The translations under genes and the position numbers were made by a program. The notes beneath the pieces are model-generated. The model searched no databases. It was not told the DNA's origin and saw nothing but the letters and a program-made list of their open reading frames with translations. This document shows positions 6,564-47,946 of a stretch of DNA of 64,000 bases, piece by piece. How positions within the stretch are numbered: the stretch's first letter is position 1; the number at the start of each line of letters is the position of its first letter. The stretch comes from Martelella lutilitoris (lineage in GTDB: Bacteria; Pseudomonadota; Alphaproteobacteria; Rhizobiales; Rhizobiaceae): the NCBI RefSeq assembly GCF_016598595.1, contig NZ_CP066786.1, forward strand, positions 2,503,501 to 2,567,500. The letters run 5' to 3'.

Positions 6564-7037
6564 TCAGCAGCCGCCGATGGTCGAGCGCACGATCGTGTTG
6601 AGCGCCTGATCGGTCGCCTGATCAACGACGCCGGTCGGGGCAAAGCCGTATTGCGTCTGGAAGGCGACCACCGCTTCCCGCGTCTTTGCGTCAAAGACCG
6701 GGTCCGGATAGGCAAGGAACAGCCCCAACCGGTTGAGCGAGGCTTCCAGCGCCGTCACCCTCGGCAGCATGTCGCCGATCTCAAGCGCGGCGAAGATCGC
6801 CTCCGGCTCGGCAATGCAGGCCTCGTCGTCAACTGGCGTCAGCACGAAATTGCCGCGCAATTCGCCGCCATCGGCATCCATGACATTGGCAAGCGCGCTG
6901 TCGATCAGTTCATTGTCCTCGAGACGCAGGCGCTCGCTGTCCAGGTTGAGAACGCCGCCATCGGCGAGCGTCAGATAGGCATTGCCGCCGTCGCAATCGA
7001 TGCTGCAGTGGACCCTATCGCCGCCGGAACAGCCGGC
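6564..7037 (-). pseudogene. 3' half of phage-interrupted gene for an exported peptidoglycan-binding protein
   Basis: The coding frame runs upstream of the ATG at 6881 (through codons reading CSGGDRVHCSIDCDGG) to the prophage end at 7038 with no start codon, so it is a headless fragment. Its C-terminus (about the last 70 residues) is a peptidoglycan-binding type 1 domain (LNRLGLF..PDPVFDAKTREAVVAFQTQYGF). The 5' half is at 47942-48201. Joining the two across the CCGGC duplication restores ATT-GCC-GGC-TGT in frame and gives 242 residues: signal peptide, a Cys-containing middle domain, and the binding domain. Translation from the internal ATG at 6881 could still make a 105-residue cytosolic fragment. 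Confidence 0.9.
7033..7037. repeat. Target-site duplication CCGGC, left copy
   Basis: CCGGC directly abuts the prophage end beginning TGT at 7038 and is repeated at 47942-47946 after the terminal ACA. Five bases is the duplication length made by Mu transposition, and CCGGC is close to the Mu target preference CYSRG. Confidence 0.9.
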
Positions 7038-7088
7038 TGTGGCGCGCCGTCACCTTTGGCGCAAAAATGAAACACCTTTGACACGGAA
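7038..7088 (+). other. Prophage late (right) end with transposase-binding sites
   Basis: Reading inward, the terminal TGT is followed by a site starting at 7052 (acctttggcgcaaaa) and a second at 7074 (acctttgacacggaa). The opposite end has acctttgtcacacgg, also starting at its 15th base. By analogy with Mu R1/R2/L1 these are MuA recognition sites. That function is inferred; the repeat itself is seen. Confidence 0.8.
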
Positions 7089-7116
7089 ATCTTTGCGCAA
7101 GCTAACGCTTTGGCGA

Positions 7117-7494
7117 TTAGTGGCTACGTCTTTTTTCATTGGCCTCGGCAGAAGTTTCTCCTCCATGCACTTGGCAGTACCCACCATCAAGTTCTTTCCA
7201 TCGTTTGAAGTCTCGCTGCCCTCCTCCGGCTACTGACAGAGTGCAGCGCTTACCCTTCTTGGTAAGCGCACCGCATTGAGGGGTTCCTTCCGTTTCGATC
7301 CAGCGAAGATAATCTTCCACAGAGGCACCAAAATGTTGGGCCGTAAATCCAACGGGATCAGAGACGTATTTCTCAAGATCACGCGCTTCTATCGTTATCG
7401 AACGGGAGCCACCGACCCAGCGCAAATCAACGACAAAATAGACTCCCGACTTGCTCAATAACTCAATAGTCGGCTTGTGCAGCTTTGCATCCAT
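7117..7494 (-). CDS. Hypothetical protein with C-terminal Cys/His zinc-type motif
   Basis: A 125-residue protein and the last gene before the late end of the prophage. The N-terminal ~85 residues are unrecognised (VDLRWVGGSRSITIEARDLEKYV). The C-terminus has CGALTKKGKRC, then about 20 residues, then YCQVHGG, a C-x9-C...C-x2-H spacing that resembles small zinc-knuckle domains in phage proteins. It sits beside the methylase remnant in the accessory region that corresponds to mom in phage Mu. No catalytic motif is seen and the function is unknown. Confidence 0.7.
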   Translation of the reverse strand: MDAKLHKPTIELLSKSGVYFVVDLRWVGGSRSITIEARDLEKYVSDPVGFTAQHFGASVEDYLRWIETEGTPQCGALTKKGKRCTLSVAGGGQRDFKRWKELDGGYCQVHGGETSAEANEKRRSH

Positions 7495-7543
7495 AAGAAC
7501 GCTCCAGGTTGGTCTCGATATGCGCGATTACCTTATCAAGCCA

Positions 7544-7760
7544 TCAGCTGATAATCACCTCCTTCACGCCCTTTCCATTCCCCTCCGAGATCGAATAGGT
7601 GCAATCGACCTCCTCGATGGCGAAGCGTGAGAAGGTCTCATAGACGCCTTGAACGGCGTTCAAGGACAAGATGAAGGTGCCTTGAAGGCCGGCTAAGGCC
7701 TCCGCCGTCGCCTCGAAATCCTCCCGGCCGAAGACGCCCGCGCCATAGTCGATCTCTTTT
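7544..7760 (-). pseudogene. C-terminal remnant of a phage DNA adenine methylase (D12 class)
   Basis: About 70 codons (DYGAGVFGREDFEATAEALAGLQGTFILSLN ... VDCTYSI ... KEVIIS, shown in pieces) match the C-terminal third of phage Dam-type N6-adenine methylases: the segment after the DPPY motif, the FILSLN strand, and the terminal strand. The catalytic DPPY motif and S-adenosylmethionine site are missing. The open frame runs on to 7849, but residues upstream of about 7760 do not look like a methylase and overlap the start of the opposing gene at 7835. Methylase or mom genes usually sit at this late end of Mu-like phages, so this is a decayed modification gene. Confidence 0.65.
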
Positions 7761-7834
7761 TGTAGTGCAGCCGCTAGACCGAAAATCAAAATGAGTGGAC
7801 TGTCGTAAACAGGACCCATGGGAGGATTCGGAAC

Positions 7835-9352: not shown

Positions 9353-11644
9353 TTAAACTCCTGTCGTTACGGGAACAATGTCCCTGGAGAGGTAAAATCT
9401 CTTCTCCGGAGAGACATATCTGGGAAAATGCGGATGCCAGAAAGACGGCGGTCCCGAGACATAGATGTCGGTCATGCCTCCGGGCCTATGTGGGTCAGTG
9501 GTGTTTTCGACGCCGCTGATCACAATTCTGGGGTTCGAGCCGGTCGGCTCGTTATCGAGCGTGATGATGATCTTGCGGTCTTGATAAGCACGATAGCTGT
9601 AGAGCTCGACTGCCGTGATCGACGCAGAGTTCGTATCGTCTACATATTGCAGGCCGTGGTTCTGGAGACTGAAATCCAGCCAATCCTGGTCGAATTCGAG
9701 GATGCCGTCAGGCCCTTCGATGACGATCTCAATCGTCGTTCCTGTCCTGACTGCCGGCTCCAGGTTCCCGCTGCCGTCGCGCTTCGCGTGCAGAGGTCGG
9801 AAATCACCGCCCTCGCGCACGATGTCGTGCACGTGGGCAAAGAGGTCTGCGGTCATCAGCTTGCCCATCATGTGGATGCCGTAGTCGGTGGTCCGCTCGT
9901 GGTAGACGGGGCCGATACAAACAATGTCAGGGTCCGTGAATGAACGTGAAAGCGTGTCCAGCGCGGTGCTCTTGATATTGCCGAGCGGTTCGGTGATCGC
10001 ATCATTGGGCTGGTAAGCGAGCAGCTTTGGCCTCAAGCCCGCTGCAACGTTGCCCGGCAAGGCCTCGCCGACGCCGAGAACATAGTCAGCGAAAGCCGAG
10101 AGAAGATCGCCATAGCTGTCGTAACCGGTGTAGACATCCATCTCATGGCCGATCAGAAAATGGGTATGCATGATCGAAGGCCGGCCATATTGCGACTGCA
10201 GCATGGACGACGCCTCATTGATCATCCCGGCGATGTTGTCGCCTTTTGCAGTCCCCGGCATGTATTCCAGGAGAGACGTGCCGCCTTCGGCCGAGGTCAG
10301 CTGCATGTAGATGCGCTGTACCCTGGACTTGTACTGATCTTGAGCGATGACCGAAAACTGGATGGCGTCAGGCGTCCATTGATTGATACCTCCTTGCTCC
10401 GTGTCACGACCGGCAGGCGCCAATGCTGCTATGTCGCCAGCCTGCCATGGTGGAGCCGATCCGTCTCCGTCGCCGAAAGCACGATCACCTGCAGCTTCGA
10501 ACGCGCGGTGTGGATCAGAAATCCCCTTCGTCACGAAGCCATAGAGATCAGGATAGCCGCCTCCCGCCATCGTATTGCTCTGACCGGAACACGAAAGCAG
10601 TTCGATGGGCTCGTTCGTTGCCGCAAACGCAATCCCTGCACCGGACTTTTTCCAGAGCACGTCGACCGGCCCGAAGAACGTCGGAACTGTAATGAGGTAA
10701 TGATCGGCATCATAAGAGCGATGGTTGTAGCCAGGCACACCGGCGATCAGTTGGCCGGTTGCGATCACTTCACCCTGAATACGACTGGCCAGATCATCGA
10801 CAGTCTCGCCGGCAAGCCGGTGGATGAAAATCTCCCCGGTTTTGCGGACCGACATCGCAACGCGCCCCTGCTTGTCGCGCACGATCGGCGTGCCGATGCT
10901 CCGGTCAGGCAGGACGCTGGCCTCGGATCGCAGCCGCATCAATATGTCATGGATGAACGTCTGACCGCTTTTCAGGACGCCGATTGCGACCTTGCCGGCC
11001 ATATCCTTGGCAAGCGGAGTGCCCAGCGAGGAATCGGGAAGGTCGGTGTCCTCAGTCATTGAAGCGCGGAACGTCCGCGCCATGAATGTACCCGCCCAGT
11101 CCTTCCAGCCACCGATAACGCCGCCCTGGTTGAAGAACGGGAAAGCCCAGCCGCGAGCGGCATCGTTCAGAAGCAGTCGCTGGCGGAGGTCCACATTGAC
11201 GCGTTCCTGAGCGCTCTGTCTGAGTTCAGTCGTCGTCACCCTGCTTTCGAACTTTGAATAGGGCGGATCGCCGATGCGCAGCCAGCGGCCCCAGCCGGCC
11301 ACCGCCTTGTATTGTCCCGCGTTGTCGACGACAGGACCATCATAGCCGGTTGCCGTTGCCTGGTTATGTGTACCTTCATCCTCGACAACCACTTCTGCAC
11401 CCTGACCATCCTCGGCGGCGGACCTGCCTGCCAGTTCGGACCAGCTCTCGGCAAAGATCTTGTCGTGCGTGATGGACTGCTGGACACCGCTTATCTTTTC
11501 GGCAACCGCTCCGACGCCCGCAAGCTGGTTGGCGAGTTCGCCATAGGGCTGAAGCCCGGTCCCGCTTTCGTCGTTGACAAGCACTTCCTTCGCGAGTGAG
11601 ACGCGATTGCCAATATTGTCGGTTCTGACGCCGTTCTCAGCCAT
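9353..11644 (-). CDS. Tail fibre/spike protein with SGNH esterase domain
   Basis: A 763-residue protein. The N-terminal ~300 residues look like a fibre shaft with two similar segments (SSLGTPLAKDMAGKVAIGVL and RSIGTPIVRDKQGRVAMSV). From about residue 345 there is an SGNH/GDSL-type hydrolase: CSGQSN carries the nucleophile Ser, and DYGIHMMG (around 570) supplies the Asp-x-x-His pair. This is the arrangement of sialate O-acetylesterase-like phage enzymes that deacetylate surface polysaccharide or LPS. The C-terminal ~150 residues form a beta-rich tip. It lies after the tail hub gene, as expected for a receptor-binding protein. Confidence 0.8.
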   Translation of the reverse strand: MAENGVRTDNIGNRVSLAKEVLVNDESGTGLQPYGELANQLAGVGAVAEKISGVQQSITHDKIFAESWSELAGRSAAEDGQGAEVVVEDEGTHNQATATGYDGPVVDNAGQYKAVAGWGRWLRIGDPPYSKFESRVTTTELRQSAQERVNVDLRQRLLLNDAARGWAFPFFNQGGVIGGWKDWAGTFMARTFRASMTEDTDLPDSSLGTPLAKDMAGKVAIGVLKSGQTFIHDILMRLRSEASVLPDRSIGTPIVRDKQGRVAMSVRKTGEIFIHRLAGETVDDLASRIQGEVIATGQLIAGVPGYNHRSYDADHYLITVPTFFGPVDVLWKKSGAGIAFAATNEPIELLSCSGQSNTMAGGGYPDLYGFVTKGISDPHRAFEAAGDRAFGDGDGSAPPWQAGDIAALAPAGRDTEQGGINQWTPDAIQFSVIAQDQYKSRVQRIYMQLTSAEGGTSLLEYMPGTAKGDNIAGMINEASSMLQSQYGRPSIMHTHFLIGHEMDVYTGYDSYGDLLSAFADYVLGVGEALPGNVAAGLRPKLLAYQPNDAITEPLGNIKSTALDTLSRSFTDPDIVCIGPVYHERTTDYGIHMMGKLMTADLFAHVHDIVREGGDFRPLHAKRDGSGNLEPAVRTGTTIEIVIEGPDGILEFDQDWLDFSLQNHGLQYVDDTNSASITAVELYSYRAYQDRKIIITLDNEPTGSNPRIVISGVENTTDPHRPGGMTDIYVSGPPSFWHPHFPRYVSPEKRFYLSRDIVPVTTGV

Positions 11645-11657
11645 CTTTAAAGCCTCT

Positions 11658-14600
11658 TCAAACGATGGTTACGGGAAATGGCCCGCTCACCGGACCGGCC
11701 GCGCCGTCCGAGTTGAGCGGTTCGATGTAGTAGTCGTAGTCGCCCTGCGGTATCGACGCGCCGCTCTCCTCAAACAGCACGACATCGTCGATCGAGCCGT
11801 CGAAGGCGGTCGATGCGGCAAGAGCCATTGCATCGTTGCCGCTGCCGGCCTGGATGCGGTCGAGGTGATAGCCGTTGGCGGATCTCGCCGTGCCAGGCCC
11901 CGGCGTGCCGCCGGTCAGCTGCGGCGTCACCGACCCGGCCGACCGACCCGAGACGGCAAAGGCCATCCGGTAGTATTTGCCGGCTGTCAGCGTTATGGCC
12001 TGGCTGATCAGATCGGCCGTGCCTGCCGCATGCGCGGCCTTGCCGCCTGCAATCGTCCATCCGCCTTCCGGCGTCCAGGCATCGCTGCCCGCAAAGGCGC
12101 CATTGTTGACGAGGCTCACGCGTGTCGTATCGCCGTCGACCAGATTGACCGAACTGGACGGCACGACGGCAACCTGCGCGCCCGTGCGGTGGACATCGCG
12201 ATCCAGCATGCCGCCTGAAGGCACGCGATAGAGCTGCAGCGCGGCCGTCGCCTCGTCGGCCGTGGTCACCAGCGAGACGCGGGCAAAACCGAGACCGCCG
12301 GCAGCCGTGATCGATGCGGCATTGAGCGCGCCAGGCAGGACCGGGTCGTCTGCGCCGATCGTGACGCTGACCGTGCCGCTGGCAGGCCCTTCCGTACCGC
12401 CGCCGCCGATCGCATAGACGCGGATGTCGACCGTCTGGCCTTTGACATAGCCGCCGATCGACGCGCCGCCATTGGCGACCGGCACGGTGAAGCTGGACCA
12501 TGCGCCGCCAGAAAGGCGGTGTTCGATCCGATAGCTCGAAAGCGTCGCGGCCGAGCCGCCGCCGGGGGCGATCAGGATCGCCAGTCCGTTCTCGCTTTCT
12601 GTGCCGGAGAGACCGGAAACGACGCTGGCGATGCGGGGCGCGACAGGCGCGACCTCGTAGTTTGCGATCTCGCCGCCCACTCTGCCGTCCCAGGCGGGCG
12701 GCACCTCGGCGTCCGTCAGATCGTCAATGACCGGCGCGGCCTCGATCATGTGGATCGTGGCGGCAAAGTCCTGCCCCGGTTCGATGCCCTTCACCTTTAC
12801 GAGATGCGAGACCGTTTCCAGCTCGCCGAAATGGATGAGATCGCCGACCAAGGGCATGGTCGAGGCATCCTCAAGAATCAGCGTCTGCCACCGGCCTTCC
12901 TGCGTCGTTACCTTCCGCACGAGCGAAACGCCGACTTTGTCGTTCGCGTCGGCAAAGTGACGGAAGCGGATTCCGTACGCCTTACCGGCCTCCATGGTGA
13001 CGATCTCGTCGAGCGCAACAAGCGCGCCCTGGACGGCGCGGACGCGGGCCGAAACCTGCGTGCGCGTCAGAACGTCGGAGGACAGCGCCACGAGGTCGCC
13101 GCGCGTCGCCACGCGGGCAGCGCCCGATTGCATGGCGCGGTAGCTGTCCGGCCGGTAGATCAGCTCGTATTGCCGCCGGCGCGCCTCGCGCCAGATCTCG
13201 GCCGGATCGGTCTTGCCCGGCATTTCAATCTGCTCGGTCAGATCGATCGGCCCGGCATGGCCCGGCCAGGGCACGATCCGCTCGGCCGGTTTGTAGTCAT
13301 TGGTGGCGTCGAAGAACTTGACGCGGAAGGCATGCGGCGGCCCGAAATAGGTCCGCGACCACTGGAAATCCGAGGCATTGCGCGGGCTGATATGGTCGAT
13401 CACCAGATCGTCCGGACGATCGATGACGACGGTCCAGCGCACGCCGTCATGGCGCGGCGTCGCCCGGCCGGCAGCGCAGATCGCGAGCAGCATCTCGCCG
13501 AGGTTTTCGGCGGCATCGTGCAGGCGGTCATATTTGAGGCCCTTGGACTGGCACCAGTCGTACCAGTCGGTAACAGCGGCCATGTCGATCGACGCGGCCG
13601 GTACCGGATAGGGATTGCACGGTCCGGTCAGCGCCTTCACAAAGGCTGCGGCCGGGTTGCTGACGTTCGCCAGTTCCCCGACCTCGGCAATCCGCGCGGC
13701 AAGCGCATTGACGCTGTCGAGCGCGCCGTTCAGCTGATAGGTCGCCTTGATCCTCATGGCGAGCAGGCAAAGCGGCTTGCCGAAATTGATCGGATATTCC
13801 GGCCGGATCGACTGAATGGCGGCAAGCGTGACCCGGTCGGAAACGCGCGTGGACGTCTGCTCGTCGGTCATCCGGGTGACTTCGATCTCGTATTTGCCCC
13901 GGTTGGGGAAATCCCAGCTGTGCTGGCGAAAGAAGGTCTCGCGCTTGGCGGCGGTGATATCGAGGGTCGCGACATCCTGCCAGTCCGGGCTTCCGACAGG
14001 GCGCTGGCGGATGCGCACGGAAACCGTCCGCTGGCGCACATTGCCGCCGTCATCGACATCGAAGAGGCCCGACGGCATGGCTATGATCACCGAGCAACTG
14101 GCGCTGTCGAGCGCGGTCGCGCGCGTCACCGGCTTTTCCTCGGCCGGCTCGCCGTCGATCACCTCGCCGGCATCGTCGCGCGGCAGCGGCCGGACAAGCT
14201 CGATGCCGGTCGCCTCCTCGATGACCTGGCGCGGATAGAGCGTGACCGGTTCATCGCCGGCAGAGCCAGCGCGGGTCTCGATCTCGACCTCGTCATATTC
14301 GTCGATCGACGTTTCGCCGATGCGGATGTCCGAGAGCGAAAGCGGGCCATAGCCGAAGGTAAAGAGCCCACGGACGAACTGCTCGTCACCGACGATCTCG
14401 GTATAGGTGGTCGCGGCAAAGACGGGCGCAACGCGATGCGTGCCGAACAGCATGGGCACGGGATCGCTGTCCGTCGGCACGCGATTGCGCCAGCCCGATA
14501 CCTGAAACGTGTCGCGCTTCTCGCCGTCATTGGTCTTGGGCGGCGGGATCAGCGCGTTGATGGCGAGCGACGCGATCGCCGTCAGACCGGCCGTGATCAG

Positions 14601-14978
14601 ACCCTTGACCAGGCCGAAGCCGGCCGTCCCCGCCGTAAAGCCGAAAGCGCCGGCGATGGCCGGAGCGAGCGCGAAAGCGGCAATCGAAACGACGACCATC
14701 AGAATGGAGCGGACGGCGTTCTTGCCCGGCACTACGCGGATGACGACGCGCACGCCGGGCTTCGGCCGCACATGCCGCCAGTATTCCCGCGCTACCGGCA
14801 TCATGCTTTCGGCCGAGACGAGCGTGATGCGCAAATGTCTGCGGTCGACGGCGGCAAGCGCCGGCAGGCCGAGCGTGATCATCTCGTCGATCGTCGCGCC
14901 GGCCGGCACGGTCATGTCCAGGCGCGCGGAGCCTGGATCGATGACGGGCGCTGTCGTGAGCTGAACGAGACCGGTCAT
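11658..14978 (-). CDS. Tail hub / host-specificity protein (lambda J-like)
   Basis: A 1,106-residue protein. Residues ~90-160 are hydrophobic with Gly/Ala-rich helices (SILMVVVSIAAFALAPA; GLITAGLTAIASLAINAL), as in many phage hub proteins of the lambda J family. These are followed by a large beta-rich region with fibronectin-like stretches (residues ~760-1000). It is preceded by the NlpC/P60 gene with an ATGA overlap and followed by the spike gene, the usual order of tail-tip genes in siphoviruses. It should sit at the distal tail tip and carry the fibres. Confidence 0.85.
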   Translation of the reverse strand: MTGLVQLTTAPVIDPGSARLDMTVPAGATIDEMITLGLPALAAVDRRHLRITLVSAESMMPVAREYWRHVRPKPGVRVVIRVVPGKNAVRSILMVVVSIAAFALAPAIAGAFGFTAGTAGFGLVKGLITAGLTAIASLAINALIPPPKTNDGEKRDTFQVSGWRNRVPTDSDPVPMLFGTHRVAPVFAATTYTEIVGDEQFVRGLFTFGYGPLSLSDIRIGETSIDEYDEVEIETRAGSAGDEPVTLYPRQVIEEATGIELVRPLPRDDAGEVIDGEPAEEKPVTRATALDSASCSVIIAMPSGLFDVDDGGNVRQRTVSVRIRQRPVGSPDWQDVATLDITAAKRETFFRQHSWDFPNRGKYEIEVTRMTDEQTSTRVSDRVTLAAIQSIRPEYPINFGKPLCLLAMRIKATYQLNGALDSVNALAARIAEVGELANVSNPAAAFVKALTGPCNPYPVPAASIDMAAVTDWYDWCQSKGLKYDRLHDAAENLGEMLLAICAAGRATPRHDGVRWTVVIDRPDDLVIDHISPRNASDFQWSRTYFGPPHAFRVKFFDATNDYKPAERIVPWPGHAGPIDLTEQIEMPGKTDPAEIWREARRRQYELIYRPDSYRAMQSGAARVATRGDLVALSSDVLTRTQVSARVRAVQGALVALDEIVTMEAGKAYGIRFRHFADANDKVGVSLVRKVTTQEGRWQTLILEDASTMPLVGDLIHFGELETVSHLVKVKGIEPGQDFAATIHMIEAAPVIDDLTDAEVPPAWDGRVGGEIANYEVAPVAPRIASVVSGLSGTESENGLAILIAPGGGSAATLSSYRIEHRLSGGAWSSFTVPVANGGASIGGYVKGQTVDIRVYAIGGGGTEGPASGTVSVTIGADDPVLPGALNAASITAAGGLGFARVSLVTTADEATAALQLYRVPSGGMLDRDVHRTGAQVAVVPSSSVNLVDGDTTRVSLVNNGAFAGSDAWTPEGGWTIAGGKAAHAAGTADLISQAITLTAGKYYRMAFAVSGRSAGSVTPQLTGGTPGPGTARSANGYHLDRIQAGSGNDAMALAASTAFDGSIDDVVLFEESGASIPQGDYDYYIEPLNSDGAAGPVSGPFPVTIV

Positions 14979-15379
14979 GCCATCAGCCTCTCATGGCGAT
15001 AGATGCCGCGCAGTCTTTGTTGCCAGGAGGGCATGCCGTAGCATTCGACGCGCGCGCCGGTCTCGGCCATATGCAGCATCCAGTGCGGCCGAACCACAAT
15101 GCCGATGTGAGACGTCACCTGACCGCGCCGAAACAGCACCACGTCCATGGCCTGTGGATCGTTCTGGCGGTGCCAGGTGCTCGATGCCGCCGCCGTGCCG
15201 ATCAGGCCCTCGATCTCGGCGCGCTCGTCCGTGGAGGCATAGGCGTGGCGATAGCTCGGCAGATCGATCCGCAACTCGCGGGCATAGACCAGGTGGACCA
15301 GGCCCCAGCAGTCGCAGCCGGAAATATCCCTTCCCAGATCGCAGAACGGAATGCCAAGATATCTGTCGGACCAGCTCAT
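14975..15379 (-). CDS. NlpC/P60-family tail tip peptidase
   Basis: A 134-residue protein. CDCWGLV contains the catalytic Cys and SHIGIVV the catalytic His of NlpC/P60 cysteine peptidases, which cut peptidoglycan stem peptides. In lambda-like tails the equivalent (gpK C-terminus) acts at the tail tip during DNA entry. It overlaps both neighbours by 4 bp (ATGA), indicating translational coupling. Confidence 0.9.
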   Translation of the reverse strand: MSWSDRYLGIPFCDLGRDISGCDCWGLVHLVYARELRIDLPSYRHAYASTDERAEIEGLIGTAAASSTWHRQNDPQAMDVVLFRRGQVTSHIGIVVRPHWMLHMAETGARVECYGMPSWQQRLRGIYRHERLMA

Positions 15380-15903
15380 CGATAAATCCCCGGAAAACGA
15401 TCTTTGGTGAAACGGTCCATCGGTACGCGTTCGTCCTCGATCGGACGGCGTCCGATCGCGATCCGCACCTCGCCGGCATCGCCGTCGGCCGACACAAGCT
15501 TGAGGTCGCGATATTCGACCTCTATCAGGTCCGGAGACCCGGCCAGCACCACGGCCATATGCACGGTCGCGTAATCGACGATGGAGCGCAGGACGGCGGC
15601 GATCTCGTTGTCGACGTTTTCCAGCACCAGCGTTGCCGAGGCCGGCGCGTCCTCCATGTCGCCCGGAACTTCGGCGCTCGCGAGCACGAACAGATAAGGG
15701 TCGGTCACCGGGTTCGCGCCCATCCAGCTTGAGCGCGTGCCGTACATTATCGGATCGGCCGAAAGCCGTTCGGTCGGGTCGGTTGAAAGCCGGATCGGCT
15801 CCGACAAAAAGGAGTGCTCAAAGACGAACAGCGCGACCTCGACGTCGCCGCCGGTCTCGGCGTCGAAGGCGGTTCTGGCATTCACACTGACACGGCGGCT
15901 CAT
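15376..15903 (-). CDS. DUF1833-type minor tail protein
   Basis: A 175-residue protein. The opening MSRRVSVNARTAFDAETGGDVEVALFVFEH and the segment ADPIMYGTRSSWMG followed by LATLVLENVD-like residues match DUF1833 minor tail proteins, which occur just before NlpC/P60 genes in tail-tip operons. The start at 15903 is chosen over 15990 because its ATG overlaps the upstream stop (ATGA) and the extra codons read through the upstream gene. Confidence 0.8.
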   Translation of the reverse strand: MSRRVSVNARTAFDAETGGDVEVALFVFEHSFLSEPIRLSTDPTERLSADPIMYGTRSSWMGANPVTDPYLFVLASAEVPGDMEDAPASATLVLENVDNEIAAVLRSIVDYATVHMAVVLAGSPDLIEVEYRDLKLVSADGDAGEVRIAIGRRPIEDERVPMDRFTKDRFPGIYR

Positions 15904-16322
15904 GGCATCACCGTCACGCTGAAAGAAATGCGGAAGCGGATGCCCCGGACGGTCTCGCGCGGCGGCTCCTTGCCGAACAGGCAGAGCCAACGCGCCGCCA
16001 TCAGGATCGGCGTGCCGTCGGGCAAGAGCAGCGGCCTGCCGTCGCTCGCAAGCAGCGGCCAGCCGTCCGTGGTCGGATCGGGCATCCAGATGAGGTTCGA
16101 CCCGAAATCCGCATCCTCCTCGTAGAACCGGTCAAAGACGGCCTTGCGGCTGCGGTCGACGTCGATCGTCAGCGACACGCTTTTGGTGACCGAGGACCAG
16201 CGCCGCCGCCATCCGGCAGGGCCGGCGTCGCGGCTGCGGCCGAGACGCGGATCGTCGATCTGGCGCTGATAGCCGTCGCGGTCTGGCTTGGGGAGTTCGG
16301 AAGGCCAGGTGAGAACAGTCAT
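15900..16322 (-). CDS. Phage tail protein downstream of the tape measure
   Basis: A 140-residue protein with no motif I can name firmly. It begins MTVLTWPSELPKPDRDGY, a pattern seen in small minor tail proteins located between tape measure and DUF1833 genes, and has a central RRRWSSVTKSVSLTIDVDR strand and a C-terminal beta region. ATGA overlaps occur on both sides. Position suggests tail tip assembly, the place of lambda gpM/gpL-type proteins. Confidence 0.7.
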   Translation of the reverse strand: MTVLTWPSELPKPDRDGYQRQIDDPRLGRSRDAGPAGWRRRWSSVTKSVSLTIDVDRSRKAVFDRFYEEDADFGSNLIWMPDPTTDGWPLLASDGRPLLLPDGTPILMAARWLCLFGKEPPRETVRGIRFRISFSVTVMP

Positions 16323-20902: not shown

Positions 20903-21270
20903 CAGTTCCCCCCGTTCAGAACGGCAAGCGCCTCGGCTTCCATGACCTGCAGATCGCCGAACACGCTGCCGGGCAGCGGAAGCCGGTCCATCACGACGTC
21001 AACGGCGTTGTAATCGAGGCCGATCCAGATCATGCCAGCCATGGAGGAGATGACGCGCCATTGCGTGCCGACCGACAAAAAGGCCCTGAGACTGTCACGG
21101 TTGCTCGCCATGATTTCCATCGTTTCGGTTTCAGCGGTTTCGGGCATGGCCTCGGTAGCCATTCCCATTTCGGCAAATTCGTCCGCAGTCTGCCGGTCCA
21201 TGGAGACCGGTTGCTGCGGATCGGCGCGGCCGGTTTGGGCCAGCGCCCAGGCACGGGCCGCGCGCTTCAG
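20902..21270 (-). CDS. DUF1799 tail chaperone extension (T part of a G/GT-like pair)
   Basis: The downstream part of this frame (from ATG 21201) reads as a DUF1799 protein (VGTQWRVISSMAGMIWIGLDYNAVD). The frame stays coding-like upstream of the ATG (GKLKRAARAWALAQTGRADP) as far as the slippery heptamer at 21270-21276. It therefore looks like the -1 frame extension of the tail assembly chaperone encoded at 21267-21641, giving a fused product of about 246 residues, as in lambda G/GT. Independent initiation at 21201 remains possible. It lies directly before the tape measure gene, the standard place, and its stop overlaps that start. Confidence 0.75.
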   Translation of the reverse strand: MKRAARAWALAQTGRADPQQPVSMDRQTADEFAEMGMATEAMPETAETETMEIMASNRDSLRAFLSVGTQWRVISSMAGMIWIGLDYNAVDVVMDRLPLPGSVFGDLQVMEAEALAVLNGGN

Positions 21271-21276
21271 TTTCCC
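21267..21276 (-). other. Probable programmed -1 ribosomal frameshift site
   Basis: On the minus strand the chaperone ends CT-G-GGA-AAC-TGA. G_GGA_AAC is an X_XXY_YYZ heptamer in the correct phase with a stop right behind it; slipping back one base continues CTG-AAG-CGC into the DUF1799 frame. Lambda uses GGGAAAG at the same gene position. Confidence 0.75.
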
Positions 21277-21641
21277 AGGCGCGCTTCCTCGCCAGACATC
21301 GATTCCCGATAGGCGCGATAAAGAGCCTGACGGAACCAGGCCTTGTTGAGCGCGCGGCGGAAGTTGTCCGGGGTAAAGGTATAGGCGTTGCCGTCATCAT
21401 CCTCGACGCCGCGCCAGCCCTTGACGACATCGGTGAGATGCTTTCGCTCATGCTCGATCTGCTCGCGCGCCGTCGTCAGGCTTTCGGCCGCTTCGAGACG
21501 GTCGATCGCCTCTTCCTGCGTTTCAGCCTCGAACAGGACTTCGAGTTCCTGCTTCATGTAGCGGCCGGGATGCTCGGGATCGGGAACGCTGACGATCACC
21601 GGCCACCAGTAGCTGTCGGTTCTCGTGAGGATGAACTGCAT
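21267..21641 (-). CDS. Tail assembly chaperone (lambda gpG-like)
   Basis: A 124-residue helical protein located between tail tube and tape measure genes. It begins MQFILTRTDSYWWPVIVSVPDPEHPGRY and then has a long charged helix (EEAIDRLEAAESLTTAREQIEHE, in short excerpt). In lambda-like phages this slot holds the chaperone that coats the tape measure protein during tail assembly. Its last two sense codons are part of the slippery site described at 21267-21276. Confidence 0.75.
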   Translation of the reverse strand: MQFILTRTDSYWWPVIVSVPDPEHPGRYMKQELEVLFEAETQEEAIDRLEAAESLTTAREQIEHERKHLTDVVKGWRGVEDDDGNAYTFTPDNFRRALNKAWFRQALYRAYRESMSGEEARLGN

Positions 21642-21682
21642 TGTGCTTTTCCTTTTGGTTCGGGTTTTGCCGGAGGCCGGGA

Positions 21683-22621: not shown

Positions 22622-22623
22622 GG

Positions 22624-22791
22624 TTACTTTCCTTTCCCGGTGGCGTTCTTGGACGCCGCGTTGTTGGTTTCAGGGGTACTGGAGCTGCTCTCGGCGCTCG
22701 CATCTGCCTTCGGCATCTCCTTCGAGACAGGTTTCAGCGCCTTGGTCTTGGGATCGCGGATGTAGCATCCGCCCTTGTTTGGCCGTTTCAT
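22624..22791 (-). CDS. Small basic, Ser/Asn-rich protein (55 aa)
   Basis: A 55-residue frame starting ATG at 22791 and ending TAA. The start overlaps the stop of the upstream gene (ATGA) and the stop is 3 bp from the tail tube ATG, so it fills a gap in a fully coupled operon. The sequence opens MKRPNKGGCYIRDPKTKAL and ends in a low-complexity tail. Similar short Lys-rich proteins occur before tail tube genes in Mu-like phages; the function is unknown. Confidence 0.75.
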   Translation of the reverse strand: MKRPNKGGCYIRDPKTKALKPVSKEMPKADASAESSSSTPETNNAASKNATGKGK

Positions 22792-25482: not shown

Positions 25483-25497
25483 GTGAGACTGCTCCTG

Positions 25498-25833: not shown

Positions 25834-25844
25834 CGTGTTCTCCT

Positions 25845-26954: not shown

Positions 26955-26957
26955 GAT

Positions 26958-27791: not shown

Positions 27792-27875
27792 GGACTTCTC
27801 TCTCGCTCCGTCTTATATTCATGGTGTCAGGCACGCGATGACCGGTGATGGTCCTGGTAGCTCCCTGACGAACAG

Positions 27876-27902
27876 GCCGGATCACCCCCGGCCTTTTTTC
27901 CG
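27876..27902 (+). terminator. Possible plus-strand terminator at the gpF 3' end
   Basis: On the plus strand ggccgg (27876 region) and ccggcc flank a short loop and are followed by tttttt. It would stop antisense transcription into the head genes; on the minus strand the same hairpin has no T tract after it. Confidence 0.3.
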
Positions 27903-38943: not shown

Positions 38944-39545
38944 CAGCTGTTCCTGACGCATGGCACATCCTCCCGCAGATTGTAGTCGTAAAGCGCCTTC
39001 TTCTTTTCCCGATAGACCGGGGCGGCCGGGCCGGTGTCGCGGATCAGGCGGAACCGTTTGAAGCCGTTCGACGTCAGCCGCGTGCCCTTCTGACGAACGG
39101 GCATTTCCATCAGATAGCCGGCAAGCGTCAGCTGCCGGGCGTATTTCATGGCGTTGGAGGTTGAATCACGATCGTCGACAGACGCAGCGACAACAATATC
39201 GCCGATCGTGAACGTGACGGACATGCGCATGGCCGACCAGGCGCGCTGACGGAATGTATCGCGCCAGGGCTTGCGCGCCCGTCCGGTGTGCGGACCGTTG
39301 GGACCGCTGGTAAAGACCCGGCCTTCGGCCCGCGCGACTTCCCCATCGGCCGTCAGTTGATAGCAACCCGCCTCGGCCCGTTCGACAAGGCCGTGACGCA
39401 CAAGCGTGGACATGGCGTTGGATATCTGGCGGCGCGTCAGGCCGAGATCGGCCTCCAGCACGTCGATGGTCAGGCAGACGCCGCCGACGAGATGGTGCAG
39501 GACCTTTGTGAGCAGTTCTCCGGGGCCATGGTTCTGTTCAGCCAT
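38943..39545 (-). CDS. Winged-helix phage regulatory protein
   Basis: A 200-residue protein. LTIDVLEADLGLTRRQISNAMSTLVRHGLVERAEAGCYQLTADG is a MarR-like winged helix; a second similar HTH (FTIGDIVVAASVDDRDSTSNAMKYARQLTLAGYLMEM) follows, so it may have two DNA-binding domains. It lies just downstream of the MuB gene. ATG 39545 overlaps the MuB stop. Role in early regulation or transposition is inferred from position. Confidence 0.72.
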   Translation of the reverse strand: MAEQNHGPGELLTKVLHHLVGGVCLTIDVLEADLGLTRRQISNAMSTLVRHGLVERAEAGCYQLTADGEVARAEGRVFTSGPNGPHTGRARKPWRDTFRQRAWSAMRMSVTFTIGDIVVAASVDDRDSTSNAMKYARQLTLAGYLMEMPVRQKGTRLTSNGFKRFRLIRDTGPAAPVYREKKKALYDYNLREDVPCVRNS

Positions 39546-40312
39546 CACAGAACCTCCGGCACAATGATCGCCGTGCCGCTGGCGCGGTCGTTCATCAGCT
39601 TTTCGCCGGCCATATCCGCCATTGTGATGCCGTCCTCGCCGACATCGATACGAAAGCCGAAGCGTTCGATGCTGGCGATGGCCTCCAGAACCTCGCGGTT
39701 ATACCCCTTCGACATTTTGGCGACGAAGGTGACAAGGTCGTCGGCAACGCGGATTTCGCAGCGCTTGTCGATCAGCCTGCGGACGTCTTCCTTGTCCATC
39801 ACGTCGAACCGCACTTTCTGGCTGACGCGCGATGCGACCTGGGGAAACCGCTTGAGATTGTCGTTGACCTTGCCCATACCCACGAAGATGGTCGGCAGCT
39901 CCAGCATGTCGGAAATGTCACGGCATGTTTCGAGAATGGCGGGGCGGGACGAGCAATGGTCGAACTCGTCGATGACAAGCGTGAAGATCTTGCGGTTCTG
40001 GATGGCAAGCTGCTGGCGCAGGGCCAGTTCGGAAACCACCTTGGCGTATTTCTGTTCAATCCCGCGCGGCTTCTCGACGCCGAGTTCATCAAGCAGCTCG
40101 TTGAGCATCCATTTCGGCTGCCATTCCTTCTTGGCGCGCAGATAGATCGACCCGGTCTGCGCGATATGCTGTTTCATCGTGGTCGTTTTTCCGAGACCGG
40201 GCGCACCGTCAACGACCACAATGCAGGCCTCTTCGGCCCCGCGTTCTTCGAGCGCCGAAAGCGCCGAATGATAGGCCTTGACGTTGGCTGTCTCGACAAA
40301 CACGTTTTTCAT
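39545..40312 (-). CDS. MuB-like AAA ATPase, transposition target protein
   Basis: A 255-residue protein. GAPGLGKTTT (residues ~37-46) is Walker A and FTLVIDEFDH (~113-122) Walker B; the rest fits AAA family target-selection ATPases of Mu and Tn7-like elements (TnsC/MuB). It should bind target DNA with ATP, deliver it to the transposase, and give target immunity. It follows MuA with a 30-bp gap. Confidence 0.9.
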   Translation of the reverse strand: MKNVFVETANVKAYHSALSALEERGAEEACIVVVDGAPGLGKTTTMKQHIAQTGSIYLRAKKEWQPKWMLNELLDELGVEKPRGIEQKYAKVVSELALRQQLAIQNRKIFTLVIDEFDHCSSRPAILETCRDISDMLELPTIFVGMGKVNDNLKRFPQVASRVSQKVRFDVMDKEDVRRLIDKRCEIRVADDLVTFVAKMSKGYNREVLEAIASIERFGFRIDVGEDGITMADMAGEKLMNDRASGTAIIVPEVL

Positions 40313-40341: not shown

Positions 40342-42585
40342 TCAGGCAGCGGCCGAACGGATGAGGTTTCGAAGCGCATCCAGGTCGATGCCTGACATTC
40401 TCAGCACCTCGCGAGCCGCCGGCCGCTCAAGGCACGAGCGCAGAACGCGAAGCTGATTTGCTGATAGTTTTTCCGGATTTTCGATGGCCCAGGCGGCAAG
40501 GTCTTCGTCCGTGCGGATGATGTTGCGGCGGGAGGAGACGCGCGTAGGTTCCTTGTTGTCGACAACAAGATGGACGGCCTCCGGTGCGGCGATCGGCTCC
40601 ATGGGGATGGCGTCGGTCTGATCGAGAAGTCCGGCCGGAACGAACTCTTCCTCGATTTCCTGACGCTTCTTGTCGACCCTGTTGAGGCGACCCTTGTACC
40701 GCCTTTCCTCTGCCGCTCTCTGTGCGGTCAAAGGCAGATAGTCGCGGCGGTTACCGTGGAAGACAGCAACGCAGATCAGTCGGCCGGGTTGGCCTTCCTC
40801 GCGATCGATCTCGCGCACCCAAACCTTCGAGGCGTCGGCAAAATCGTAGCCGACCATGACCTCCTCGTCGTGATAGGCTTCGAGCGCCTCGTGGAAATAT
40901 TCGTTGTTGTTCCAGAAGACCTGCGAGCGGCGTGCCACTCGGATCTCGTAAGGGCGGAACAGATCGTCGATTTCGTCTTCGGATACAGGCACCGGCTCGA
41001 AACCGTCGCGAACATGCAGCTGCCAGAACTCATCGGGCGAATAGTGCCGAAATTTTCCGGTTTCCTCGTCCCGGTAGCGCGGCAACCCGGTGTGCGGCGT
41101 GGCGTTATAGTCGGCGATGGCCTTCTCGCACATGGCCCGGAATTCATCCCATTCTGGCAAGACGCGGGACGCGCCGAATTCCTTGATGTCCTTGCGGGTC
41201 TGCTTGTGGACGAAGTGAGCCGCCTCCTTGTCCATCTCCTCGCCGAGGTATGTCGGAAGCTTCCGGGCAAGCGGGTTCCAAGCGGTTTTGTTGAACCGCT
41301 CGATGATGCCCTTCGCCTGCGAATTATACGGCAGGGCGTGCATCTTCGTGATGGAGAGCCGACCCATCAGGCCGTTGACATCGGCATCGAAGGTCTTGTT
41401 CTTGTAGCCGGGGCCTCGGTCGACATAGAAGATCGCCGGAATGCCGTGATCGCAGCAGGCCTTCCGGAGCGCCTCGGTCACCGAAATGACGTTTTCCTTG
41501 AAGGCGATAGAGAAACCGACGCAACGCCGTGTCGCGACATCCAGAATGGACGTGATCTCGGGCTTGAACGGGCGATGGCTGACCGGATGCTCGACCTCGG
41601 CGTCGAAGGTTTTGCCGTCGGCCGTGTAGATCGTCGTCGGGAGCAGGTTTTCCGTCGAGCGGGTTATATAGGCCATGCGGGAACGCAGCGTCAGGAGACC
41701 CTCGCGGCCGACATTGCGCTCGATATCGTTGAGCTTGCGTTTCAGCGTGTAGCGCACCTGATCGATCGTCAGGGACGTATCGGGATTGGCCTCCCGGTAG
41801 TCCGCAAGCGCTTCCGTGGCGGTCGGTTTCGAGGGCTTGGCGTAAAAGGTGAGGAACGCCCGGAATTCCTCCGAGACCGGCTCGTCTTCCTTCGTCAGGG
41901 CCGGGGCAAGGGCCATGATCCCGCCCTTGTCGCGCGTGGAGAACCACCGCTGCACGGTACGCGCGGAAACACGAACCTTCTCGCCGCCGCGATCATTCGC
42001 AATGGCAAGCGTCTCCTCCAGGAGGCCGAAACCGTTCGGATCCGTGAGAAGCGAGGGCCGTTCGATAAGCGAACGTTCCCGATCGTTCAAAGGCTCGCCG
42101 GCATTGACCTTTGCCAGCACCGCGGCGCGTTCGAAGTGCTCTTCCTGGGCGCGCACGAACATCAGGATCGCCTCCCGGCGCGCTGTCATGCCGTTGATGG
42201 CGATATAACGGTCGATGGCCAGAAGGATTTCGCCGCGCGCCTCCATGGCGTTGCGCTGGCGAAACCTGAGCGACGTGACCGGGATCAGGGCAGCTTTCCG
42301 GCGGGAGACTTCGCGGTGACCTTCCTGCGCGGCAATCTGCTTTTCCTTCATTTCGCGGGCGTGAAGCGCTGCGGCCATCGCGTCCGGCAGAAGCGAGCGG
42401 TGATATTCGCGACCGCCGCCGCCGCCGCTTCCGCGCCTCATGCGGCATAGATTGTCCGGCAGGTCGTTCCAGCCGTATTCGGTCGCCCTATCCCTGACCC
42501 CTCGCTCCGAATTCGGGAAGCTCCTGAGGCCGCGCTCTTTGGCGATGTCGGCCAGTTCCCTGGCCGTGAACCATTCCTTGATCAT
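40342..42585 (-). CDS. MuA-like DDE transposase
   Basis: A 747-residue transposase. The N-terminus (WFTARELADIAKERGLRSFPNSERGVRDRATEYGWNDL) is the Mu-type winged-helix DNA-binding domain. The catalytic core has Asp in ILDVATRR (about residue 347), Asp in YVDRGPGYKNKT (about 389) and Glu in KGIIERFNK (about 428), the DDE triad of the RNase H-like integrase fold. A Mu-type C-terminal beta-barrel and MuB-contacting tail follow. The start at 42585 follows GGGAGG; the longer frame to 42675 has no ribosome site. It catalyses integration and replicative transposition. Confidence 0.93.
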   Translation of the reverse strand: MIKEWFTARELADIAKERGLRSFPNSERGVRDRATEYGWNDLPDNLCRMRRGSGGGGGREYHRSLLPDAMAAALHAREMKEKQIAAQEGHREVSRRKAALIPVTSLRFRQRNAMEARGEILLAIDRYIAINGMTARREAILMFVRAQEEHFERAAVLAKVNAGEPLNDRERSLIERPSLLTDPNGFGLLEETLAIANDRGGEKVRVSARTVQRWFSTRDKGGIMALAPALTKEDEPVSEEFRAFLTFYAKPSKPTATEALADYREANPDTSLTIDQVRYTLKRKLNDIERNVGREGLLTLRSRMAYITRSTENLLPTTIYTADGKTFDAEVEHPVSHRPFKPEITSILDVATRRCVGFSIAFKENVISVTEALRKACCDHGIPAIFYVDRGPGYKNKTFDADVNGLMGRLSITKMHALPYNSQAKGIIERFNKTAWNPLARKLPTYLGEEMDKEAAHFVHKQTRKDIKEFGASRVLPEWDEFRAMCEKAIADYNATPHTGLPRYRDEETGKFRHYSPDEFWQLHVRDGFEPVPVSEDEIDDLFRPYEIRVARRSQVFWNNNEYFHEALEAYHDEEVMVGYDFADASKVWVREIDREEGQPGRLICVAVFHGNRRDYLPLTAQRAAEERRYKGRLNRVDKKRQEIEEEFVPAGLLDQTDAIPMEPIAAPEAVHLVVDNKEPTRVSSRRNIIRTDEDLAAWAIENPEKLSANQLRVLRSCLERPAAREVLRMSGIDLDALRNLIRSAAA

Positions 42586-43608: not shown

Positions 43609-44433
43609 TCAGATGCGCCCCCGGCGCCTCAGGGAGGCGATGACGCGCTCCTCATTGGCCAGCATCAGCCGGTCGAATGTCTCGTCCGGCAGTTCGGATA
43701 TCGTCTTTGAGATGGTCAGGAATTTCTTTTCCGTCGGCGCGACGGCAACACCGTTGTTCAGATAGTCGAGCGCCTCCTGGATGCTTTTGGCCTTGTGTTC
43801 CTCGGACAGAACAAGGTCGAGCACCTTCTTCTGAAGCGGCCCGGCCTGCGCCGATAGCAGCTTCAGTTCGGTCTGCTTTTCCGCGATAGCGGTTCCGGCG
43901 AGGCGGGCGCGGCTGACCGGCGTCAGGTCTTTCCAGATCTTGACGGCAATCTGGATGGCGCGCGTCGAAAGACCGATCTTTTCGGCGATATCGACAGCAA
44001 ACGAAAAGATTTCGTTTGCAGCGCCATGCCGTGCGAGCGCGCCGGCCGTGCCGGCCCTGGTCTCCGGATGAAGCCGCTCATAGACCTGTTTCAGCTCATA
44101 GAGATGGTGGCAGCGATCGAGCGCGTTCAACTCGTTGCGGCCGAGGTTTTCCATAACCTCTTCGAGCCGGGCTTCATCGTCATTGGCTGCCGTCGACAGA
44201 CGCACCCGGATCGTCTCCAGCCCGATCAACCTGTGCGCTTCCAGTCGGCGCAGGCCGGTGACAAGGCTGTAACCGTCGTTCGATTTCCGCACCGTAATGG
44301 CGTTGATCTGCCCTTGGGCAGATATCAGCTGACCGAGCGCCTGAGCCCAGGCGGGATCAAAATCGCGGGCGCGATCATCGGGGATCGCGATCTGATCAAG
44401 AGGAAGTTCGAATTCACCGATTTGCATTGTCAT
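43609..44433 (-). CDS. ParB/Srx-domain phage protein
   Basis: A 274-residue protein. Residues ~10-100 match the ParB N-terminal domain (LPLDQIAIPDDRARDFDPAWAQALGQLISAQGQINAITVRKSNDGYSLVTGLRRLEAHRLIG in outline), including the GxRR(L)EA box that binds CTP in ParB. A KorB-like helical region with HTH (EKIGLSTRAIQIAVKIWKDL) follows. No parA or parS is visible, so it may act as a transcription regulator or nuclease rather than in partition. GGAGA precedes the ATG. Confidence 0.82.
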   Translation of the reverse strand: MTMQIGEFELPLDQIAIPDDRARDFDPAWAQALGQLISAQGQINAITVRKSNDGYSLVTGLRRLEAHRLIGLETIRVRLSTAANDDEARLEEVMENLGRNELNALDRCHHLYELKQVYERLHPETRAGTAGALARHGAANEIFSFAVDIAEKIGLSTRAIQIAVKIWKDLTPVSRARLAGTAIAEKQTELKLLSAQAGPLQKKVLDLVLSEEHKAKSIQEALDYLNNGVAVAPTEKKFLTISKTISELPDETFDRLMLANEERVIASLRRRGRI

Positions 44434-46187: not shown

Positions 46188-46233
46188 GAATTATTCCAAA
46201 TTAGGAATTACGTCAATTCCTAATTTGGAATAA
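46188..46233. promoter_or_regulatory. Early operator palindrome and early promoter
   Basis: ttattccaaattaggaatt (46191-46209) and aattcctaatttggaataa (46215-46233) are exact inverted repeats around acgtc. Each arm is itself a near-dyad of the form TTCC-N6-GGAA, so two repressor or Ner dimers could bind side by side. On the minus strand TTGACG (46216-46211), 17 bases, then TAATTC (46193-46188) fits a sigma-70 promoter for the early operon whose -35 lies in the palindrome centre. The repressor GTG is 6 bp beyond the right edge. Confidence 0.8.
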
Positions 46234-46239
46234 CTGGAT

Positions 46240-46920
46240 GTGCACGTGGCTAAAAAGGAAGACCCAGAGGAGCTGGCTTTTCGAAAGAGGGTTCGAGATG
46301 CCATCCAGGCAGGCGGTAAGTCCGGTGAGATGGCAAAAAAGACAGGTATCCCGGTCGGAACCCTCAACAAATACGTTGCGTTAACTTCGACGCCATCAGG
46401 TGTTAACGCCATTAAGATAGCAAAAGCTCTGAATTTGACTGTCGAGCAACTCGCAGATGGCGATATGCAATCAACGGCCAGCCAGTCGCTTCACACTGAG
46501 GATATGGTGAGCGTTCGTTTCCAGGATCTCAGGGTTTCGGCTGGTCCGGGTCTCACCGTGATCGATGAACGCAACGCTGAAATGATTGGCTTAAGCCGGC
46601 GCATACTGAACGAACTCGGCCTATCGCCACTCCAGACACTGATCATGATGGTCGATGGCGACTCCATGTCGCCTACCATCACTGACGGAGCAGTGATCTT
46701 CGTAGACCGAAATGAACGGCAGCTGCGAGAGGGGAAAGTCTATGTGTTGTCGCTGGCAGGGGATTTGGTCGTTAAACGCATCCAACTCGATTTCGACGGA
46801 GGCGTAACATTGCTGTCTGACGCAGACGGACCTGCTTTTCCTCCGCGCAAAATTGACCCGGTTGATGTCGAGCACGTAAACGTGGTGGGGCGCGTCGTGT
46901 GCGCCATGTCGCCTGTGTAA
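46240..46920 (+). CDS. Phage repressor, LexA-like (HTH + S24 peptidase)
   Basis: A 226-residue protein, GTG start at 46240 (GTG 46246 is an alternative). Residues ~25-70 form a helix-turn-helix (GEMAKKTGIPVGTLNKYVALTSTPSGVNAIKIAKALNL). The C-terminal half is an S24/LexA-type domain with Ser in VDGDSMSPT and Lys in GDLVVKRIQ, the Ser-Lys pair for RecA-stimulated self-cleavage. It should keep the lysogen by binding the operator at 46191-46233 and allow SOS induction. It is divergent from ner, as Mu c is. Confidence 0.9.
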   Translation: MHVAKKEDPEELAFRKRVRDAIQAGGKSGEMAKKTGIPVGTLNKYVALTSTPSGVNAIKIAKALNLTVEQLADGDMQSTASQSLHTEDMVSVRFQDLRVSAGPGLTVIDERNAEMIGLSRRILNELGLSPLQTLIMMVDGDSMSPTITDGAVIFVDRNERQLREGKVYVLSLAGDLVVKRIQLDFDGGVTLLSDADGPAFPPRKIDPVDVEHVNVVGRVVCAMSPV

Positions 46921-46943
46921 AATCCAGCTGGGAAAGGCGCAGT

Positions 46944-47465
46944 ATGAAGTGCTTGTCTATCGTGGTTTCGGCGGCCCTACTCTTGCCAACAGTAGGGTTT
47001 TGCGCTGATCAACCTACTGCCGAGGAGACCGTTGCGTTTATCCTTTATGGTATCGAGAATGGAAGCTATGTAGATGTCGGCTCCACCTCGCTCGGGACAT
47101 ATAAAAGTGGCATTGTATCCCAGACGAGTTCAGCCCCAGCCGAGTATTCTTTTCCCGCCGGCATGGGAGAGTACAGCAGCATCTCTGTGAAGCAGACTGA
47201 TCCATGCGTTTTTAGCGTCATTAGCCGCGATAAGGCCGGACAGAACGAAAGCCGCAGTTACGACTTCAACCATTTCGCCACGTTGGTTTTTACCAGCCGG
47301 GGTGATGGACGGATTGGCTTCTCTGGAGAATGCCCGATCGTGCGAGAGGACGGCAATTGTGGGAAGAACGGAACGGTCAAGGTCGACAACATAATCTTCG
47401 CGGACCGATTGGAAAAAGCAGTCGATTTTTTGAAGCAGACCTATTGTCCGGGAGCGCCGTTTTGA
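46944..47465 (+). CDS. Secreted accessory protein co-oriented with the repressor
   Basis: A 173-residue protein with a clear Sec signal peptide (MKCLSIVVSAALLLPTVGFCA). The mature part is beta-rich with Cys pairs (TDPCVFSV; GECPIVREDGNCGKNG; QTYCPGAPF). The segment EETVAFILYGIENGSY resembles openings of small periplasmic proteins. It starts 23 bp after the repressor stop with GGAAAGG before the ATG, so it is probably made from the repressor transcript in the lysogen. Function unknown; a lysogenic conversion factor is an inference. Confidence 0.7.
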   Translation: MKCLSIVVSAALLLPTVGFCADQPTAEETVAFILYGIENGSYVDVGSTSLGTYKSGIVSQTSSAPAEYSFPAGMGEYSSISVKQTDPCVFSVISRDKAGQNESRSYDFNHFATLVFTSRGDGRIGFSGECPIVREDGNCGKNGTVKVDNIIFADRLEKAVDFLKQTYCPGAPF

Positions 47466-47941
47466 GGTTTGGTATTTCAGTTCGGAGCATACTTCGACTG
47501 CCGACCATCCATTTCGATACATCGCGCTCGGAATAACGAAAAATATATTTAAAACAATGCTCTATTAATGGTCGGCAGTTTTCGTTGATGGTCGGCACAG
47601 ATTGCCGACCTTGACGCCTGCGATTGAAACTACCTTTGGCGCAAAATCCGGCCTGCTCTTGTGTCGGCGATGCGCGGGGCGGATCGGCAAAGCAGCGAAA
47701 AGCCTGCAATTCAGCGGCCCTGGTCGGTTTGAGGGCTTTATGCGCAAAGTGAGCGGCTTCCGGCGTTTTCTGATAGCATTCTGATCGAGAATGCGATGAT
47801 TTTCGCCGTTTTCGATCCGCCTTTTGCATTTTGTGCACCGCAAATCTGGAAGCCGTTAGCGAATATTCCCTTTTAAACTCAGCGAGTTAATCGCTCAGAC
47901 CCCACACCACCCCCGTGTGACAAAGGTATTACCCCCCTACA
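47466..47941. other. Prophage early (left) end: repeats and transposase sites
   Basis: About 475 bp with no gene. It contains four copies of TGGTCGGCA or its complement (47499-47508, 47568-47577, 47588-47597, 47602-47611), an AT-rich tract between the first two, an outward copy of acctttggcgcaaaa at 47632-47646 identical to that at 7052-7066, and the terminal site ccgtgtgacaaaggt (47913-47927, inward on the minus strand) beginning at the 15th base from the ACA end. Confidence 0.7.
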
Positions 47942-47946
47942 CCGGC
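47942..47946. repeat. Target-site duplication CCGGC, right copy
   Basis: Abuts the terminal ACA of the prophage and repeats 7033-7037. See the mobile element entry. Confidence 0.9.

Follow-up and report, generated by a model that had tools for sequence, protein, structure and literature searches.

A Mu-like prophage with exact ends in Martelella lutilitoris and the proposed repeated switching of its kind of transposase between two end-recognition codes

Introduction

In Martelella lutilitoris a gene for a peptidoglycan-binding protein is broken in two by a long insertion, which raises the questions of how the insertion arose and how its transposase recognizes its ends. The window, a stretch of 64,000 nt from contig NZ_CP066786.1 (positions 2,503,501 to 2,567,500; assembly GCF_016598595.1), holds at 7038-47941 a complete-looking Mu-like transposable prophage, inserted presumably by replicative-type transposition, with a CCGGC 5-bp stagger; we put this reading, with the reading of the ends by a transposase helix included in the explanation, at a probability of roughly 0.93, and no evidence against the prophage turned up. 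As a prophage the element is ordinary; its value lies in the exact ends, through which a prophage prediction becomes data that can be used and a comparison of end types across relatives became possible. That comparison suggests, from aligned sequences, that transposase and ends have changed over jointly, more than once, from one recognition code to the other. Pooled with its relatives the element is a natural experiment on end recognition by MuA/TnsB-type transposases, a matter on which the reports of two ShTnsB structures, in their accessible parts, come to different readings (PMC9527255, PMC9371665). The comparison also bears on how an element changes its transposase and several dispersed binding sites while staying mobile.

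Results and discussion

The boundaries and the interrupted gene are made up as follows.

7033..7037, no strand: CCGGC target-site duplication, copy 1, read from the bases
47942..47946, no strand: CCGGC target-site duplication, copy 2, read from the bases
7038..7116, plus strand: late (R) end, TGTGGCGCGC, then cores CTTTGGCGC (7054-7062) and CTTTGACAC (7076-7084)
47634..47941, minus strand: early (L) end, TGTAGGGGGG, with core CTTTGTCAC (47917-47925, minus)
47929..48201, minus strand: first part of the host gene, which reads 86 residues of host origin and runs on as GVGG to a stop within the phage
6564..7032, minus strand: remainder of the host gene, with a PG_binding_1 domain

The prophage spans 40,904 bp, with most genes on the minus strand. 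It begins with TGT from 7038, ends with ACA at 47939-47941 and carries ACCTTTG from base 15 of either end, so that every base of the boundaries proposed in an earlier, sequence-only reading is present. In phage terms 47941, on the right, marks the early/repressor end, and 7038, on the left, the late/tail end. The late-end transposase-site cores are spaced 22 bp apart, with weaker CTTTG copies at 7091 and 7108, and the early end has an internal inverted core, CTTTGGCGC, at 47634-47642 on the plus strand. TGT-N11-ACCTTTG occurs once per strand in the window, at 7038 and 47941, with CCGGC outside both. Across the whole genome the pattern matches 11 times and its reversed control twice; what is diagnostic is thus not the motif by itself but the duplication, conserved termini and empty site. 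The G+C content of the prophage is 61.3%, against 63.2% and 65.1% in the flanks.

Joining 48201-47942 to 7032-6564 yields a stop-free frame of 242 residues. The sequence-only reading had described an in-frame split of a 242-residue peptidoglycan-binding protein gene; the gene is borne out by the joined frame and by intact copies in relatives, while the words 'in frame' add no evidence, because removal of an insert and one duplicate always restores the old frame. That reading had also proposed a search of relatives for an uninterrupted copy. With the C-terminal part of the split gene as query, three loci came up, in M. lutilitoris GH2-6, in M. radicis DSM 28101 and, weakly, in Marinicella sp. 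W31; these were compared with the joined flanks (2001 bp). GH2-6 (L011) matches over 2001 of 2001 bases at 95.0% identity with 100 mismatches and no gaps, DSM 28101 (L012) matches at 84.8% identity with 5 gap openings, and the third locus (L013) matches over 165 bp only. Thirteen genomes of the genus were examined, including the prophage's own; the gene is uninterrupted in 3 of the other 12 (G317, 92%, and G834, 83%, over residues 1-242; G833, 80%, over residues 6-242), and some of the rest have weak matches only, to the peptidoglycan-binding domain. Judging by these copies, the interrupted gene is accessory in the genus and was whole before the insertion. The target in Martelella is the gene of a secreted peptidoglycan-binding protein.

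Transposition rather than site-specific integration, as the sequence-only reading had it, agrees with the gene pair that the element encodes:

40342..42585, minus strand: MuA-like transposase (PF09299, PF02316, PF00665, PHROG 310)
39545..40312, minus strand: MuB-like AAA+ transposition protein (PF13401, PF05621, PHROG 296)

A DDE transposase with Mu-type domains beside a MuB-like ATPase, TG...CA ends with repeated transposase sites, 5-bp duplications at unrelated sites, and genes for morphogenesis, lysis and repression all mark the element as Mu-like. The related elements G794 and G795 are flanked by other 5-mers (GTAGC/gctac and GTCCC/gggac), differences expected of transposition and not of site-specific integration. 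A site-specific, integrase-borne prophage, or an assembly artefact, that merely resembled a Mu-like element could appeal to nothing beyond the flanks that every insertion leaves. No integrase family was found among the open reading frames scanned, the window has no tRNA, and the insertion site is a coding sequence, intact in relatives, against the expectation of an att site. The element is also single copy apart from remnants. Already very improbable on these grounds, the integrase or artefact explanation is refuted by the 5-bp duplication and the gapless empty site in M. lutilitoris.

Ends among relatives

The early end, searched as TGTAGGGGGG-N4-ACCTT, occurs in 6 of 394 family genomes (7 places), in 1 of 385 class genomes (the window's own) and in 28 virus stretches; six of the latter share another context, with no transposase match in their DNA examined. 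The consensus late end of the group is TGTRGCGCGS. Of 15 left ends in 14 records (G796, one of these, holds the G393 phage), three, those of the window, G794 and G795, could be paired with a right end that carries the matching duplication; the other 12 could not, most records being cropped. By their coordinates the contigs of G081 and G142 end within the phage, G393 has no matching right end, and the G206 right end has a 5-mer mismatch (cttga against gttca). A search of 20 further virus records gave one usable right end (L334).

Two side observations concern these ends. At G206:C23:357354-358630 (L131-L133) a late and an early end lie about 1.28 kb apart with unequal flanking 5-mers, and the G206 genome gave no transposase match; this element is possibly internally deleted. 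Head-to-head early ends occur in L092 (4811/4904, about 92 bp apart) and L387 (1778/2114, about 335 bp), an arrangement unexpected if target immunity acts.

Numbered from the tip, the relatives share their outermost bases, and positions 20-23, which set the types, are TGNC or CYGG in most of them.

TGNC: window, G081 copy C18, G142, G782, G784, G795, G799, L088, L334
TGAG: L353, L401
CYGG: RR1-B, RcapMu, G081 copy C17, G393, L073, L076, L078, G783, G793, G794, L307, L311, L321, L324, L329, L367
TTGC: L090, L308

TGNC and TGAG were pooled as type T, and CYGG is type C. The set of 27 transposase/end pairs leaves out G005 (no end found) and L090 and L308 (intermediate core); a table of 29 pairs adds the latter two. 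RcWaterboi fits the rule and was not counted, being 95% identical to RcapMu.

A proposed recognition helix that covaries with the ends

41935..41967, minus strand: proposed recognition helix SARTVQRWFST, residues 237-247, with switch positions R239, Q242 and R243

The transposase is 747 aa long from ATG 42585 and 777 aa from GTG 42675, the latter giving the residue numbering used here. Among 690 transposase columns in the 27 pairs, only 242 and 243 separate types T and C perfectly: column 242 is Y in 16 of 16 type C and 0 of 11 type T proteins, and column 243 is R in 11 of 11 type T and 0 of 16 type C proteins. They are neighbours in one helix-turn-helix (HTH). In 5000 label shuffles two perfect columns never appeared and one appeared 14 times; independent pairs agree in 6 of 6 cases (sign test, p 0.031). 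No single-residue code was found elsewhere in the helix, where 238, 239 and 246 separate the types imperfectly. In the table of 29, R243 agrees with G21 in all pairs, and R239 with C23 and Y242 with C20 in 28 each.

The helix can be placed on solved structures. A profile of 11 transposases matches ShTnsB (4.8e-05) and MuA 4fcy (0.0016), a single-sequence search giving no match to solved structures at 0.001, and the profile alignment sets 239 on R77 and 243 on R81 of ShTnsB. In the accessible part of one report, R77 contacts dG37, R81 contacts dG36 and dT37, and activity is lost in R77A and R81A (PMC9527255). The other, in the part available, places the I-gamma domain and linker on positions 5-19 (PMC9371665), and for MuA the available text has I-beta and I-gamma binding the ends (PMC3362531). 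Conservation of positions up to 19 with variation at 20-23 fits a putative reading of 20-23 by I-beta.

As a mechanism, the MuA-like transposase would bind to sites that recur at each end; bases from the tip to about position 19 are common across the group, and positions 20-23 (TGNC in the window) would be read by R239, Q242 and R243, corresponding to ShTnsB R77-R81. Related phages would have switched helix and sites together, TGNC to CYGG or the reverse. From the aligned ends and proteins we infer the residue-to-base assignments and the manner of switching; the prophage itself may be active. A prediction was made beforehand, that R243 goes with CTTTGNCAC-like cores and Y242 with E or D at 243 with CTTCYGGAC; the new cases L311, L321 and L329 fit it. 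L307, L324 and L367 (Y242 with A, Q and G) fall outside the rule and have CYGG ends; L308 (Q242, N243), outside it too, has a TTGC end. In a second round of six transposases, G716 has the end CTTTGGCAC, matching the prediction.

Several results weigh against such a code or limit it. Two of the three residue-base rules have an exception each, G799 (S239 with C23) and L090 (Y242 with T20). The new R243 cases L353 and L401 have CTTTGAGAC, not CTTTGNCAC, and L334 has CTTTGGCCA; all three keep CTTTG as predicted, with AG or a changed tail replacing NCAC, except at positions 20-23 of L334. For the other five transposases of the second round no end was recognized. I-beta R58, R77 and R81 may, according to the accessible part of the second ShTnsB report, contribute little to end recognition (PMC9371665). 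Codons 211-240 are also divergent in the same-type pair of the window and G081 C18 (0.39) and have no local divergence peak in L307/L334; the stretch may simply be fast-evolving. Import of a helix segment by recombination at each switch was considered and is not established, divergence being high in a same-type pair too.

The covariation could instead be a by-product, either of common descent or of recombination in which ends and gene move together as whole cassettes, the helix itself reading no bases directly. Phages are mosaic and near-copies exist, and the fast evolution of 211-240 in same-type pairs would suit such an origin. On the catalytic-domain tree of the 27 pairs, though, the end types are scattered nearly as shuffled labels would be, needing 8 changes against a mean of 8.8; at least six of these lie on starred branches, in a tree with 9 of 24 inner branches starred, a long L401 branch and unsure details. 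The signal is confined to two neighbouring columns of the 690, the helix aligns with TnsB base contacts, and in two close pairs the first L site has changed over a block of 4 bases while its flanks are conserved. A by-product of this kind is therefore judged unlikely.

The two close pairs show these changes directly. In the pair G081 C17/C18 such a block distinguishes the two first L sites, and an inverted internal site near 308 is also of opposite type; between L073 and G795 the block is changed at site 1, and near 152 CTTCTGGAC has become a degenerate CTCTGTCAC.

Stacked late ends stand at 4 of 23 loci examined, three of them among 18 stretches of two single-end scans; a scan for stacks gave at least 120 stretches. 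In some relatives they look like fossils of switching. In G795 the outer end is of type T, in keeping with the TGNC-type transposase of the element, and carries the matching duplication; 68 bp further in lies a C end, and the nearest relatives are type C. The L203 stack has two ends of one type, and that of L163 two CYGG-type ends and a decayed TGNC-like one; stacks are therefore not only switch fossils. Repeated independent insertions beside a resident end, unrelated to specificity, could account for these two of the four, which offer no clean switch, and the head-to-head L ends of L092 and L387 lend that account some credit; in G795, against it, the outer end fits its own transposase and duplication while the inner is of the relatives' CYGG type. 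Independent insertion is a real possibility, held somewhat below an even chance.

On balance it seems probable, if by no wide measure, that transposase and all end sites toggle between two 4-base codes via one helix (R243-G21, R239-C23, Y242-C20/G22), TTGC ends with intermediate helices (L090, L308) being stepping stones and stacked late ends such as those of G795 switch fossils. Judging by titles and abstracts, no description of such an end-recognition code was found in the open literature searched.

Other genes, remnants and neighbours

The remaining features of the prophage are listed below.

43609..44433, minus strand: ParB-like protein, also in RR1-B and RcapMu (family matches)
46240..46920, plus strand: S24/HTH repressor (family matches)
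46191..46233, no strand: 43-base inverted repeat adjoining the repressor gene, its probable operator
34065-34964, minus strand: endolysin/amidase
34998-35384, minus strand: late activator
24532..32451, minus strand: terminase, portal, MuF-like minor head, neck, head protease, scaffold-like and major head genes
9353..23640, minus strand: head-tail adaptor, tail, tape measure (1527 aa), central tail fibre and tail fibre genes

The tail is probably siphovirus-like, since no tail sheath family matched among the prophage proteins scanned. A PHROGs comparison covered 40 prophage proteins; at the cut-offs applied, seven matched no family (42582-43373, 46899-47465, 7835-8470, 7117-7494, 8580-9350, 33185-33673 and 45441-45797). 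The late-end cargo genes 7117-7494 and 7835-8470 have no Pfam/PHROG family at E 0.01, and part of the 7117-8470 region recurs in a genome remnant at 1619241.

A second full copy in the genome was ruled out; there are remnants only (G000:C1:1617770 and 1619241). A late-end remnant lies outside the window beside tRNA-Leu (G000:C1:1617712-1619440, L048). Its R-type ends, 1617770 (CTTTG core) outer and 1617835 (CTTCTGGAC-like) inner, are arranged T outside and C inside, as in G795; 200 bp are 93% identical to window 7551-7750, and no early end matched in the stretch up to 1668000.

Beside the interrupted gene, 48198-58328 encodes a CHAT-domain protein, a mechanosensitive-channel-like protein and a DUF900 hydrolase, possibly a gene neighbourhood of interest. 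The nearest of these is:

48198..53084, minus strand: upstream neighbour (1628 aa) with a CHAT domain at its C-terminus; its stop and the beginning of the interrupted gene share 4 bases

Comparison with known systems

No paper on Mu-like elements in Martelella was found in the open literature. Taken alone, the prophage is unremarkable, a new member of the RR1-B/RcapMu kind, its early region nearest RR1-B and its tail genes nearest RcapMu; the late-end tip TGTRGCGCGC is common to all three. Rhizobium phage RR1-B (NC_021557) shares a transposase 68.7% identical, the early gene order, the ParB-like gene and the ends TGTAGGGGGG and TGTGGCGCGC, but has end cores CTTCTGGAC, the helix SRATIYEW and an annotated tail sheath, whereas no sheath family matched in the window. 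Rhodobacter phage RcapMu (NC_016165) shares siphovirus-like tail genes, a transposase at 48.6% identity and the ends, TGTAGGGGGG and TGTAGCGCGC; it differs in its cores, CTTCCGGAC, and helix, GRSAIYDW.

More distant are the Pseudomonas D3112-group phages DMS3 and JBD30, with the L end TGTGGGGAGG and TTTTGACAC at positions 17-25, as in the window; the JBD30 R end, TGTAGCGCGG, also resembles the window's. Genomes of this group begin with TGT and end with ACA, in the accessible part of the source (PMC5977238). Their transposases are about 37% identical to that of the window, and the helix SVRSLERF fits SxRTxxRW only after a three-residue shift by eye. ShTnsB, of a type V-K CRISPR-associated transposon and not a phage, gives a profile match (E 4.8e-05) that is weak outside the HTH and catalytic core, yet its HTH, SLRTVQR, aligns base-contacting R77 and R81 with residues 239 and 243 of the window transposase.

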